From contig JAMCVT010000037.1 of assembly GCA_023475565.1 (NCBI GenBank), positions 1 through 38,223 on the forward strand: 38,223 nt of DNA, given 5' to 3'. Of this stretch, positions 1,077 through 35,040 are shown in pieces. The DNA comes from Actinomycetota bacterium (lineage in GTDB: Bacteria > Bacillota > Desulfotomaculia > Desulfotomaculales > Desulfocucumaceae). The position numbers and the translations under genes are program-made. Under the pieces are notes generated by a model. It did no database searches. It had not been told where the DNA came from and saw only the letters and a list, made by a program, of their open reading frames with translations. Numbering within the stretch: the first letter of the stretch is position 1; each line of letters opens with the position of its first letter.

Positions 1077-1160
1077 TCTTCTGTCTCCTGGCTTCTGGCT
1101 CCTGTCTTCTGTCTCCTGGCTCCTGGCTTCTGGCTCCTGTATTCTGAATTCTGTATTCCG
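1077..1160. repeat. Degenerate heptanucleotide tandem array, 12 units of (NNYYCYG)
   Basis: tcttctg tctcctg gcttctg gctcctg tcttctg tctcctg gctcctg gcttctg gctcctg tattctg aattctg tattccg. Confidence 0.9.
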
Positions 1161-1184
1161 ACCACATAGTAAATCAGCATGAGG

Positions 1185-14822: not shown

Positions 14823-14831
14823 TGCCGTTTA

Positions 14832-15030
14832 AAGGAAAGGGGACACACCGAACAAGGAATGGGGACACACCTGCTGAAGTCTAGATAATTCTTTTAAGAC
14901 AGGAATGTCCCCGATCGGTACTGGCTTTGGGGTCAGAGGAATGTCCCCGATCGGTACTGGCTTTGAGGGTCGGAGGGATGTCCCCGATTGGAAATGCCTC
15001 TGGGGGTCAGAGGAATGTCCCCGATGCATA
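14832..15030 (+). repeat. GGGGACA/TGTCCCC element array, copy B, with four ~36-37 bp repeated tail units
   Basis: Units at 14901, 14937, 14974 and 15011: aggaatgtccccgatcggtactggctttggggtcag and variants. Confidence 0.9.
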
Positions 15031-18125: not shown

Positions 18126-18163
18126 TAAGCCACAGAGCACGCAGAGGACACAGAGATTTTTTA
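18126..18163. repeat. CCACAGAG-type intergenic repeat (copy 1)
   Basis: taagCCACAGAGcacgcagaggaCACAGAGatttttt. Confidence 0.6.
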
Positions 18164-24675: not shown

Positions 24676-24708
24676 TGCGGACCCCCCATCTTACAGGCAT
24701 TTCTTTCT

Positions 24709-24910
24709 GGTCGGGAGACGGTAGACGGGTGTTTGCATGCCCTACTTTGATGTCAGTATAAAGACTGACCCCATTTGGCCACAGACAGAGGCCACAGAAA
24801 TTTAAAGCCATTACTCATAAGGAATGCTTATTCTCCAGTCTCCCGTCTCCTGCATCAGGTATTACCTATAGCATCTCCCGTCTCCCGTCTTCTGACCCAA
24901 GGTATTACCC
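24709..24910. repeat. Composite repeat region: GGTCGG-bounded heptamers, GTCAGT hairpin, CCACAGA repeat, heptamers, CTGACC, GGTATTACCC
   Basis: ggtcgggagacggtagacggg ... GTCAGTataaagACTGACccc ... ccacagacagaggccacag ... ctcccgtctcccgtcttctgacccaaGGTATTACCC. Confidence 0.75.
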
Positions 24911-24934
24911 CTAGAGCAGTCTCATTCCCGTAAG

Positions 24935-25669
24935 CTACATGTCTCCCCACCTGTGCATGATGATGGCCAGGCACGCCGGCCCCGCCGTCTCGGTCCTCAA
25001 TATCCTGGGTCCCAGTGACACCGTAACCACACCGCTGCCTCTGGCCTCTTCCACCTCGGAGTCCTCAAAGCCCCCCTCGGGCCCCACAAATATGTATAGC
25101 CTGCCCGGCTTTTCCTCCGGCAGGGCATCCTTCAGCGAAAGGCTCTTTTCACCCTCCCAGGGCAGTATTGACAGAGCCCCCGGGGGAATACCACGCAGCA
25201 CCTCTCCCATTTCCCGGGGAGGGAAAACCTCCGGTATCCTGGCCCGGCGGCACTGCTTGGAGGCCTCCAGGGCCACCCGCTGCCACCTGGACTGCCTGGA
25301 CGCTTTCTTCTCCCCATCCAGGCGGACCACCGACCTCTTGGAGACCAGGGGCATTATGCCGGACACCCCCAGCTCGGTGCTTTTCTGAATGACGTATTCC
25401 ATCTTTTCACCCTTGGCCAGCCCCTGGACCAGAAAAACATCAATCGGAGGCTCCCCGCCGGGGCTGAAATGCTCAGTTATCCGGCAGACGATCCCGTCCT
25501 TCCCGATATGTTCAATTACAGCCACCGCCGCCCTGCCCGCCCCGTCCAGAAGGTTGATGGTATGCCCGGTCCCCAGGCGCAATACCTTTGTTATATGCCT
25601 GACATCCGGGCCGGAAACGGTGGGTCTGGGGCTGTCAAACTGTTCCGGCGGTATAAAAAAACGGCTCAT
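24935..25669 (-). CDS. rsmE: 16S rRNA (uracil-1498-N3)-methyltransferase RsmE
   Basis: SPOUT motifs IQKSTELGVSGIMPLVSKRSV, IFVGPEGGFEDSEVE, LGPRILRTETAGPACLAI; ATG at 25669 with SD aaggtga. Confidence 0.94.
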   Translation of the reverse strand: MSRFFIPPEQFDSPRPTVSGPDVRHITKVLRLGTGHTINLLDGAGRAAVAVIEHIGKDGIVCRITEHFSPGGEPPIDVFLVQGLAKGEKMEYVIQKSTELGVSGIMPLVSKRSVVRLDGEKKASRQSRWQRVALEASKQCRRARIPEVFPPREMGEVLRGIPPGALSILPWEGEKSLSLKDALPEEKPGRLYIFVGPEGGFEDSEVEEARGSGVVTVSLGPRILRTETAGPACLAIIMHRWGDM

Positions 25670-25698
25670 TCTAATCACCTTATACTGAAATTCTCACC

Positions 25699-25826
25699 GG
25701 TCGGAATACAGAATTCAGAAGTCAGAAGTCAGAATAGGCGGGCCTTTCCCTTGGGCCTAAGAGCCGGCATGCAAATATTCCGTCTCCTGTCTCCTGTCTC
25801 CTATCTCCTGACCTGAGGTATTACCC
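25699..25826. repeat. Heptamer-array element bounded by GGTCGG/CTGACC and followed by GGTATTACCC
   Basis: GGTCGGaatacagaattcagaagtcagaagtcagaat ... attccgtctcctgtctcctgtctcctatctCCTGACCtgaGGTATTACCC. Confidence 0.8.
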
Positions 25827-25831
25827 TCCAG

Positions 25832-26758
25832 CTATTTCTTTACGGCCAGGAAGGCAACCCATTCTCCCTCCCGGAGGGTATTAATAATATTCATCCCTGT
25901 TTTGCCTATAGCTGCAGCCACCTCTTCCTGCCTTCCGGAAATAATCCCGGATGCCATAAACCTGCCGCCTTCTTTTAAAAGGCTGGCAGCGGCCGGAAGT
26001 AGCTTTATAATCACATCAGCCACAATGTTGGCCACTATTATGTCGGCCCTGGTGTCCAGGCCCTCCAGAAGATTGCCTTCCTTTACGGTTATGGCGCCTT
26101 CCAGCCCATTTAGGGATACATTTTCCCGGGCTGTCCGCACGGCCCCCGCATCGGTGTCCACCGCCAGTGCCGCGGAGGCGCCGAGCTTCACCGCAGCGAT
26201 GGCCAGTATACCGGACCCGGTGCCCACATCAATAACGTATTCACCTGCCCTGACGGTGTCCTCCAGAAGGCGCATGCACATGGAGGTGCTGGAGTGAGTG
26301 CCGCAGCCAAAGGCCATTCCCGGGTCCATCTCAATCACCAGGAGACCTTCACCGGTATCCGCCTGCTCCCAGGTGGGCTTAACCATAAGGCGCTTCCCCA
26401 CCCTGAAGGGGTGGTAGTAGTCCCGCCAGCGGTTCATCCAGTCTTCATCCTCCACTTCCCTGAGGGTCACCTCCGGCGGGTATGACCGGTTAATACTCCC
26501 CAGGGCGTCCAGAAGACCGGAAAGAAGATCACCAAACCCGTCATCTGCCGGGAGGTAGCCCTTTATGCAGGGGGGCGCCTCCGGGTCCACCAGGGATATG
26601 TCCATAGCCACAGTATCTTCGCTGCCCCCGCTTACCACATCATAAATTAGGGCGGGGTCCTCTATGACAACCCCGCCTGTTCCCAATCCGTCAAATATAT
26701 CACTCACCGCGTCCATATCCTCACGGTGCACGGTGATGCCTATTTCCATCCATTTCAA
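25832..26758 (-). CDS. prmA: Ribosomal protein L11 methyltransferase PrmA
   Basis: MDPGMAFGCGTHSSTSMCMRLLE, VIDVGTGSGILAIAAVKLGA, IIVANIVADVI. Confidence 0.94.
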   Translation of the reverse strand: MKWMEIGITVHREDMDAVSDIFDGLGTGGVVIEDPALIYDVVSGGSEDTVAMDISLVDPEAPPCIKGYLPADDGFGDLLSGLLDALGSINRSYPPEVTLREVEDEDWMNRWRDYYHPFRVGKRLMVKPTWEQADTGEGLLVIEMDPGMAFGCGTHSSTSMCMRLLEDTVRAGEYVIDVGTGSGILAIAAVKLGASAALAVDTDAGAVRTARENVSLNGLEGAITVKEGNLLEGLDTRADIIVANIVADVIIKLLPAAASLLKEGGRFMASGIISGRQEEVAAAIGKTGMNIINTLREGEWVAFLAVKK

Positions 26759-29957: not shown

Positions 29958-30021
29958 TGAATACCTTCCTTTCGCTTACATTCTTTTATATAAAACCAAT
30001 ACTGACATAATTCTGACTCCC

Positions 30022-30237
30022 AATCGAGGACATTCCTCCGACCCTAAATTCCGGAATTAGGAATTAGAAATTGGGAGAGAGCAAAAGCCATCCCGATCGG
30101 GGACATTATTGGGAATTGGGGATTAGGAATTGGGAAAGACCAACAACCACCCCGATCGGGGACATTATACCGATCGGGGACATTCCTGTCCCCAAAGGAA
30201 TACCCCAGCTTCAGCAGGTGTGTCCCCATTCCTTGTT
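30022..30237 (-). repeat. GGGGACA/TGTCCCC element array, copy C, with (TTGGGAA)-type heptamers, inside the grpE-dnaK gap
   Basis: Minus strand: aaggaatGGGGACACACCTGCTGAAG...gacAGGAATGTCCCCGATCGGtataATGTCCCCGATCGGgg...ATGTCCCCGATCGGg...GGAATGTCCTCGATTGG. Confidence 0.88.
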
Positions 30238-30876: not shown

Positions 30877-32436
30877 TTATTTATCCAGTTCTCTTGAATC
30901 TTTGTCCTCGCGTTTTTTTATAATGGTGTCGATCCTCAGTATGGCCTCGGCAATCTCCCCGGCAGCCTTTAAGGCATAGGTCTTTACAAGGGCCGGGTCC
31001 ACCACCCCGGCCTCAAACATGTCCATAATTTCGCCGGTATCACAGTCCACCGCCAGGGATTCGTTGCCGCTTTCCGACTGGGCGGCGGTAACATCCCCCA
31101 GCTTCTCCAGGGGATTAAAACCGGCGTTGCCCGCAATCTGGGCCATTGGCCTTTTCAGGGCCTCCACCACGCAGTCTACCCCGTAGACCGCCATTCCCCG
31201 CATATCCTTGCGGATTCTTTCCACATCCCCGGCTGCCGCCAGCTCCACCGAGCCCCCGCCGGGCACCACCCCGCCCCTTATTACCGCCTGGACGGCAGCC
31301 GCAGCGTCCTTGGCAATGCGCTCCCTCTCGCCCACCACCTCAGTGGTGGCGGCCCCCACCAGCACGGTGGCCATGGACTTGCCGCCCCCGTCCTGTATCC
31401 ATACCTGCTCAAGCTTTTCGTCGTTATATACCCGGCCTGCCCTGCCCAGGTATGCCGCCAGCTGGCCCGGGTCCTTCTTTAAGCCGTTTCTCTTAATCAT
31501 CCTGGCCCCGGTATGATCGGCGGCCTTGCGCAAATCAGTGGTTAAAACCCTCTGCACCACCATTGCGCCGGCATCGGTCAGCATTTCCTCGGCGGACTCG
31601 TTAACCCCCCGGTCCACCAGCACCAGCCCCACCTTCATATCCACCAGTTTCTGGATGTTCTGCCGAAACTGGGCCTGCAGCTCCATGTAACGGGCAAATC
31701 CGGCCTCGGTGGACAGCGCCTCATCTTCTATCTCTTCAGGCTCAAGAGAGTCGTCAATCACCAGCACAGGCACATTTTCCAGCTCCACCGGCATCTGGCG
31801 GTTCATTCTCTCTTTGCCTATTATTACACCCTTAAAAACCTGGTTATCCGCGCCCTCCTCGGCCACCACGGTATCCGCAAGCCTGAAGGAGCGGTCCAGC
31901 AGTTTTTCACTTCCCACCATCCCGGCGGCCCTTACCACCAGCTCGGCTATGTCCTCGTGGCCCCTGCCGGCAATCATGGCCACCTGCTGTATCACCGAGT
32001 CGGAAATGTGGTCAACGGCCCGGGCCCGGCGGCTTATGGCCTCTATACCGGCCCGGACGCCGGCCCGGAGTCCCTCTATAACCCTGGATACCGGAACCCC
32101 CCTGGAAACCTGTTCCACCCCGGCTCCCACCAGAGCCCCGGCCAGCACCGTGGCAGTAGTAGTTCCATCGCCTATCTCCTCCTGCTGGGCCCTGGCGATG
32201 TTGATCAGCATCCTGGCGGCGGGGTGATTGGCCTCCATCATGGTCAGTATAGTGACCCCGTCGTTGGTTATGACAACCTCACCGAATTTATCCACCAGCA
32301 TGGTGTCAAGCCCCTTGGGCCCAAGGGTGCCCTCCACAGCCGAGGCGATAGCCCTTATGGCATTGGCGTTGGATACCAGGGCCGCCATTTTTTCATTTAC
32401 CTCGGCCCCACCGCTGGCCTGCTGTTTAAGACTCAT
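30877..32436 (-). CDS. Archaeal-like (thermosome/TCP-1 type, bacterial group III) chaperonin
   Basis: GTLGPKGLDTMLVDKFGEVVITNDGVTILTMMEANHPAARMLINIARAQQEEIGDGTTTATVLAGALV; GGVVPGGGSVELAAAG; AGFNPLEKLGDV; SD in hrcA 3' end. Confidence 0.95.
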   Translation of the reverse strand: MSLKQQASGGAEVNEKMAALVSNANAIRAIASAVEGTLGPKGLDTMLVDKFGEVVITNDGVTILTMMEANHPAARMLINIARAQQEEIGDGTTTATVLAGALVGAGVEQVSRGVPVSRVIEGLRAGVRAGIEAISRRARAVDHISDSVIQQVAMIAGRGHEDIAELVVRAAGMVGSEKLLDRSFRLADTVVAEEGADNQVFKGVIIGKERMNRQMPVELENVPVLVIDDSLEPEEIEDEALSTEAGFARYMELQAQFRQNIQKLVDMKVGLVLVDRGVNESAEEMLTDAGAMVVQRVLTTDLRKAADHTGARMIKRNGLKKDPGQLAAYLGRAGRVYNDEKLEQVWIQDGGGKSMATVLVGAATTEVVGERERIAKDAAAAVQAVIRGGVVPGGGSVELAAAGDVERIRKDMRGMAVYGVDCVVEALKRPMAQIAGNAGFNPLEKLGDVTAAQSESGNESLAVDCDTGEIMDMFEAGVVDPALVKTYALKAAGEIAEAILRIDTIIKKREDKDSRELDK

Positions 32437-33574: not shown

Positions 33575-33651
33575 GCGTTATAGGAATAAAAAAGAAACGC
33601 CACAATATTTAGGATAACCAAAATACACTAACAGGCATTCCTTTACGGTAA

Positions 33652-33753
33652 GAATTCAGAAGCCAGAAGCCAGAAGTCAGAATGAGCCTGCATTCCTTAA
33701 TAGCTCAGATATTCTGGATTCTGGCTTCTGGCTCCCGACCGGAGGTATTACCC
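33652..33753. repeat. Inverted heptamer-array element downstream of hemW, with GGTATTACCC end motif
   Basis: cagaagccagaagccagaagtcagaat ... attctggattctggcttctggctcCCGACCggaGGTATTACCC; arms form a near-perfect ~22-bp stem. Confidence 0.85.
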
Positions 33754-33763
33754 TTTAGCTATT

Positions 33764-34929: not shown

Positions 34930-35040
34930 CCCTACAATCGGGGACATTCCTGTCTAAAAGGATTGCCTATACCGATCGGGGACATTCCTCTGACCCTCAA
35001 AGCTCAGCTCCAAAGAGAGGTGTGTCCCCTTTCCACTTTA
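34930..35040 (-). repeat. GGGGACA/TGTCCCC element, copy D
   Basis: Minus strand aaaGGGGACACACCtctcttt...gagggtcagAGGAATGTCCCCGATCGGtataggcaatccttttagacAGGAATGTCCCCGATTG. Confidence 0.85.

Follow-up and report, generated by a model that had tools for sequence, protein, structure and literature searches.

Genes and heptamer arrays in the window

The window, 38,223 nucleotides of DNA, spans the whole of contig C79 in a draft genome of 2.72 Mb (G000), and the identities of its hflX, mtaB, rsmE, prmA, hrcA, and hemW genes were confirmed with NCBIfam, which bears out the names rsmE, prmA, and hemW used in a preliminary description of this DNA. The stop codons lie at 24935 (rsmE), complement 25832–25834 (prmA), 33764 (hemW), and 1185–1187 (hflX, from the list of open reading frames). 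A thermosome-like, archaeal-type chaperonin gene (30877–32436; NCBIfam E 1e-86, under the family cut-offs) adjoins hrcA; group III chaperonins are known from some Firmicutes.

Downstream of hflX lies a one-armed array of 12 CAGRANN heptamers, inverted with respect to the plus strand (1077–1160, minus strand; regular-expression unit listing and tandem repeat finder), with an end module of the A type described below, of the form GCTTATACTG...GTCGG, on the hflX side (1146–1183, minus strand; profile match E 4.5e-6). The left end of the element between mtaB and rsmE (TTACAGGCATTTCTTTCTGGTCGG; 24691–24714, plus strand) contains GGTCGG and is diverged, being recognized from the sequence and not as a profile hit, and is followed by the direct heptamers CGGGAGA, CGGTAGA, and a partial CGGG (24712–24729, plus strand; regular-expression unit listing). 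Further on, inverted heptamers (24839–24852) lead into an inner right-end module, GGTATTACCTATAGC, which forms an extra tandem copy (24839–24873 in all, plus strand; sequence and unit listing), and an inverted heptamer array (24874–24894, minus strand; unit listing) then precedes the B-type right end GACCCAAGGTATTACCCCTAGAGC (24894–24917, plus strand; profile match E 2.8e-5), 17 bp from the rsmE stop codon.

The prmA–rsmE element begins directly upstream of the rsmE start with an A-type left end (25679–25704, plus strand; profile match E 7.4e-9), followed by a direct array with fixed first and last units, CGGAATA, CAGAATT, CAGAAGT, CAGAAGT, and CAGAATA (25702–25736, plus strand; unit listing), a spacer or loop (25737–25775), and an inverted array (25776–25810, minus strand; tandem repeat finder and unit listing). 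It closes with the B-type end GACCTGAGGTATTACCCTCCAGC (25810–25832, plus strand; profile match E 7.7e-7, pattern match with 2 mismatches), whose final position coincides with the first one of the complemented prmA stop codon. The hrcA–hemW element starts with a diverged left end, recognized by sequence comparison only (CACTAACAGGCATTCCTTTACGGTAAGA; 33627–33654, plus strand), and continues with the direct units CAGAAGC, CAGAAGC, CAGAAGT, and CAGAATG (33657–33684, plus strand; unit listing), an inverted array (33710–33737, minus strand; unit listing), and the B-type end GACCGGAGGTATTACCCTTTAGC (33737–33759, plus strand; profile match E 3.2e-10, exact pattern match), 4 bp from the hemW stop codon.

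All motifs that the preliminary description had placed at these arrays were found on re-reading the window: CTGACC-CAA-GGTATTACCC ends at 24910, 24 bp from the rsmE stop codon, CTGACC-TGA-GGTATTACCC at 25826, 5 bp from the prmA stop codon, and CCGACC-GGA-GGTATTACCC at 33753, 10 bp from the hemW stop codon, while a further GGTATTACC is present at 24858, GGTCGG at 24709 and 25699, and CCGACC at the end of the hflX array (1158–1163). The stretch between CYGACC and GGTATTACCC, given there as NNRA, is in fact the trinucleotide NNA.

Anatomy of the element

The bare 10-mer GGTATTACCC is too weak to serve as evidence on its own: allowing one mismatch, it has 6 matches in the window against 3.3 expected, which is not significant, and its 37 exact copies genome-wide only double the 18 of the reversed pattern. 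Inspection of 30 of its 37 genomic contexts yielded the 23-bp sequence GACCGGAGGTATTACCCTTNAGC, the B-type right end, of which GGTATTACCC is the outer part (a first search pattern, CYGACCNNNRGGTATTACC, had one base too many and gave few matches). With at most three mismatches, GACCGGAGGTATTACCCTTNAGC occurs 37 times in the G000 genome and its reversed control 0 times; the motifs are thus enriched at array edges, and the observation is real and larger than is visible from the window alone. GGTATTACCC had been described as a tag next to the 3′ ends of genes. It does not stand apart from the array but belongs to the terminal module, tandem copies of which, about 31 bp long and each containing one heptamer, are also found, and this rules it out as a target site outside the element.

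A full element, in the stretches around motif matches that made up the genome analysis (a sample and not a complete census of G000), consists of an end module, direct CAGRANN heptamers, a spacer, inverted heptamers, and a second end module. Full elements measure about 60–260 bp, within a family that ranges from roughly 20 to 260 bp, and the end modules, of about 23–31 bp, fall into two recurrent types, A and B. One end, GCTTAAGGGTAATACCTCCGGTCGG, is the reverse complement of the CCGACC-NNA-GGTATTACCC end, and the other, A-type, end is GCTTATACTGAAATTCTTATTCTGTCGG, present in 20 copies in G000, 13 in its congener G002, and 0 in a third congener (G001) and 18 other relatives, with 0 for the reversed control. 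Among 66 distinct B ends from the genus, many positions are more than 90% conserved and 59 ends have an inverted heptamer unit just inside, the conservation figures being partly built in by collecting the ends by pattern, which does not affect the reversed-control comparison. Some elements carry the B-type end on both sides (L082, L058) and others related A and B types, so that terminal inverted repeats, as expected of miniature inverted-repeat transposable elements (MITEs), are present.

The two heptamer arms converge, with 61 convergent against 2 divergent pairs in the genus and 6 against 0 in other genera of the class. The order of units along an arm is likewise non-random. Outermost units start with CGG in 56% of cases, compared with 5% in mid-array, though this value is in part another expression of the end module, whose GTCGG ends in CGG. 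Loop-side units read CAGAAT[AG] in 53% against 5% in mid-array, and in 67% against 11% in other genera, there on only 12 arms; positions 4, 6, and 7 of the unit vary freely. Together with the copies of the longer end (37 against 0) and the 59 of 66 ends with an adjacent heptamer, convergence and unit order uphold the earlier view of these arrays as defined elements with conserved ends and not plain products of slippage. The arms of one element are more alike in composition than those of different elements in pooled data that mix genomes (p 0.0003) and in G002 (p 0.007), and not significantly so in G000 alone (p 0.13), so that this resemblance is suggestive only.

As RNA, the hrcA–hemW element folds far better than its shuffled versions (z −7.1), followed by the prmA–rsmE element (z −3.3), and the mtaB–rsmE element folds only weakly better (z −1.5); the one-armed hflX array shows no folding beyond shuffles (z +0.5). 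No U run follows the stem on the transcribed strands of the prmA–rsmE and hrcA–hemW elements, as an intrinsic terminator would have. A known RNA family is ruled out as far as Rfam is concerned, with 0 matches in the window above the curated gathering score and matches at chance level only at the element.

Position at the 3′ ends of genes

The elements abut stop codons. Of the B ends oriented toward the 3′ end of a gene, 17 of 20 in G000 and 17 of 23 in G002 fall between −12 and +6 bp relative to its stop codon, and A ends are positioned in the same way. In these tests genes were taken as long open reading frames, and a few elements are orthologous pairs, so that the cases are not fully independent. 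For 21 elements, 86% have an end within 6 bp of a stop codon, compared with 40% expected under uniform placement in the residual gap. In the 24 co-directional gaps the corresponding values are 79% observed and 27% expected, or 50% expected when 25 bp are reserved before the start codon, and none of 20,000 simulations reached the observed proximity. The preference for sites directly after genes that had been proposed from the window thus exceeds what gap size predicts. By orientation, the 29 gaps comprise 24 co-directional, 5 convergent, and 0 divergent ones. Dispersed extragenic palindromes with a class adjoining stop codons, the pattern that characterizes REP/BIME sequences, are accordingly found here. 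At one locus (L050, with its G002 ortholog L085/L129), the array enters the 3′ end of the gene, and the C-terminal codons are array sequence that differs between the two species.

Distribution and turnover

Of 60 genomes, only those of three congeners have the B end, with 37 copies in G000, 99 in one congener, 2 in another, and 0 in 57 other relatives. The heptamers themselves are spread more widely: runs of four CAGRANN units are present in 31 of 101 genomes and 21 of 51 genera of the class, as well as in 20 of 300 genomes drawn from the phylum. The reversed control gave no match in almost any of these genomes, and the units CAGGAGT, CAGAATT, and CAGAAGT recur in distant families. The whole element has no match in plasmids or phages, which rejects carriage of the intact element by either; heptamer strings without the rest of the element are found in IMG/VR contigs.

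Congeners keep the sites, but the interiors turn over. At 26 G000 sites with orthologous flanks in G002, 20 have a recognized array or end there and 17 have CAGRANN runs; in G001, 6 of 12 orthologous sites have an array or end, 3 of them with CAGRANN runs. Heptamers, spacers, and module numbers have changed at the occupied sites, as between hrcA and hemW, where the units are CAGAAGC in G000 and CAGGAGA in G002. One site holds a 37-bp palindrome-like form in G000 and an element of ~225 bp in G002, with outer ends common to both, and for one G000 element the G002 counterpart is a 20-bp palindrome. The rsmE–prmA gap of G001 shows whole-unit replacement: CAGRANN in two congeners gives way there to GGTATTT/GGTCGTT heptamers, and the prmA stop codon marks the start of an inverted AACCTAT array.

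Several unrelated heptamer families coexist in the G001 genome (L106, L115, L122, L123, and L104, the rsmE–prmA gap), and one of its arrays apparently passes from CAGAATA into AGGCTGT and AAGCTTT units.

Possible function and origin

We consider the chances about even that the family is a non-coding, REP- or BOX-like, hairpin-forming intergenic element that acts at the 3′ ends of mRNAs and whose arrays are remodeled through slippage and copying from arm to arm. Assuming that these gaps are transcribed, the element would appear in RNA immediately after a stop codon or, within an operon, between two genes, and the transcript may fold into a long stem-loop, protecting the 3′ end of the upstream mRNA and uncoupling that mRNA from the downstream gene, as is thought for REP/BIME or BOX elements. 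Protection of 3′ ends or uncoupling of neighboring genes is suggested by analogy, since REP elements within 15 nt of stop codons, a class that affects translation, likewise place a hairpin there (PMC12306157). The arrays would grow and shrink through slippage and recombination, and the similarity of the two arms may be maintained either by selection for their pairing or by copying of one arm from the other across the hairpin. Slippage and arm copying explain the turnover of the arrays, but account for neither the conservation of the end modules nor the fixed units at the array ends.

It is unlikely, though deserving of serious attention, that the family is instead a MITE-like non-autonomous element, in which the end modules are terminal inverted repeats for a transposase encoded elsewhere, insertion occurs preferentially at stop codons, and the arrays are secondary expansions. 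The dozens of dispersed copies, the conserved inverted ends, which in L082 and L058 are of the B type on either side, and the G000 element that faces only a 20-bp palindrome in G002 all fit such an origin. Most sites, however, are common to the congeners, whose comparison revealed no clean insertion or clean empty site, and the short and long forms of one site with common outer ends fit interior change and not insertion. By eye, no target duplication was seen at the flanks inspected. Among transposases, the search for a parent gene covered the Y1 family, and it returned no such gene: no end module adjoins any of the 11 Y1 matches in the three genomes (best adjacent module score 6.6 bits), on which ground mobilization of the RAYT/IS200 type was rejected. 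Of the element with recognition ends envisaged in the preliminary description, the conserved, defined ends stand; their recognition by a mobilizing enzyme is unproven, since the analysis turned up no duplicated target, no clean insertion, and no link to a transposase. A Y1 (RAYT-like) gene of G000 is flanked by palindromes of the GGGGACAGGTACCTTGTCCC type (L163, contig C89, at about 1410, 2240, and 2650) and apparently possesses a REP of its own that differs from the heptamer element.

A bolder and improbable proposal is that what is conserved is form and not sequence, a heptad-periodic convergent hairpin that begins at the stop codon and whose unit is replaceable as a whole, as at the rsmE–prmA gap of the third congener. 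If so, many bacteria would have a dedicated process for building or maintaining 7-bp arrays at the 3′ ends of their mRNAs.

We regard it as highly improbable that the arrays are neutral microsatellites, made by polymerase slippage wherever selection tolerates them, with inverted pairs and apparent ends as by-products. Unit number and type do turn over rapidly, other heptamer families occupy some of the same gaps in G001, and heptamers are over-represented in bacteria, with slippage having been proposed (PMC4692102), but slippage does not make conserved ends of 23–28 bp, nor does it explain 61:2 convergence, fixed first and last units, or abutment to stop codons beyond the effect of gap size. 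Equally doubtful is a binding platform, in which the 7-bp repeats and ~31-bp modules would be docking sites for a DNA- or RNA-binding protein and the hairpin would be secondary, given that the regular 7-bp and ~31-bp spacing, the fixed terminal units, and the weakly specific binding of heptamer repeats of which cold-shock proteins are capable (PMC4679880) are set against free variation at unit positions 4, 6, and 7 and unit replacement at some G001 gaps, which argue against one sequence-specific reader, and against arm convergence, left unexplained.

Relation to known intergenic repeats

The nearest precedent is the GGGAATC heptamers of Xanthomonas, described as intergenic 7-bp arrays with many convergent inverted pairs, near or overlapping stop codons, and found at the same gene pairs across related species, where length and sequence vary greatly (Rehm et al., 2015; PMC4692102). 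CAGRANN arrays are alike in all of these respects, namely intergenic tandem 7-bp units, convergent inverted pairs, proximity to stop codons, and persistence at the same genes with variable length. They differ in the unit, GGGAATC being G-rich and a proposed quadruplex former, and in having conserved end modules and fixed first and last units, which do not feature in the available part of that source (PMC4692102).

The REP/BIME sequences of enterobacteria and Pseudomonas are also dispersed intergenic palindromic repeats in mosaic arrangement, though REPs are 20–40 bp long with a tetranucleotide tag and an associated RAYT gene, whereas the present family has 7-bp arrays, longer ends, and no RAYT beside its modules. 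BOX elements of Streptococcus pneumoniae combine two different end modules with a variable number of internal repeats, form a stem-loop, and vary between strains in the copy number of the interior (PMC3049150). The likeness lies in this architecture of two end modules around variable internal ones. The internal boxB module, of about 45 bp, is not an inverted pair of heptamer arrays, and BOX has a proposed parent insertion sequence, for which no equivalent was found here. STRR repeats of heterocystous cyanobacteria, to which PMC4692102 refers, are intergenic tandem heptanucleotides like the CAGRANN arrays, with different units and, to our knowledge, direct arrays only. The TAACTGA repeats of Beggiatoaceae and cyanobacteria are intergenic heptamers distributed patchily across phyla (PMC4679880) and share the 7-bp period and the patchiness, but are nearly all direct, keep to one unit sequence, lie mostly upstream of start codons, and have no converging second arm.

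The CAGRANN element thus resembles known bacterial intergenic repeats, and the family appears undescribed; in open-access papers, the heptamer strings returned one unrelated match only. Heptamer repeats have been called over-represented in bacterial genomes with no accepted explanation, and are here given an anatomy: certain units are preferred in first and last place, the arms converge, the end modules are conserved, and the element starts at the stop codon. This amounts to a searchable definition. It carries testable predictions of 3′-end protection, uncoupling of neighboring genes, or mobilization, for which congeners that keep a site and change its units provide a natural experiment.

Other repeats beside the heptamer elements

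Inverted GGGGACA...TGTCCCC motifs (for example GGGGACACACCTGCTGAAG and AGGAATGTCCCCGATCGG) characterize a second family of intergenic repeats, which occurs in the window at 1000–1065, 14830–15010, 29965–30230, and 34930–35030, and sometimes adjoins heptamer arrays. A heptamer-like GGAATTA/GGAATTG family lies within a 59-bp tandem repeat at 30053–30168, and similar GGGGATT arrays are found in G002 (L090). Repeats of the CCACAGAG/GGACACAGAG type stand inside or beside heptamer elements, both in the window (18129–18160) and in the spacers of L045, L046, and L090.
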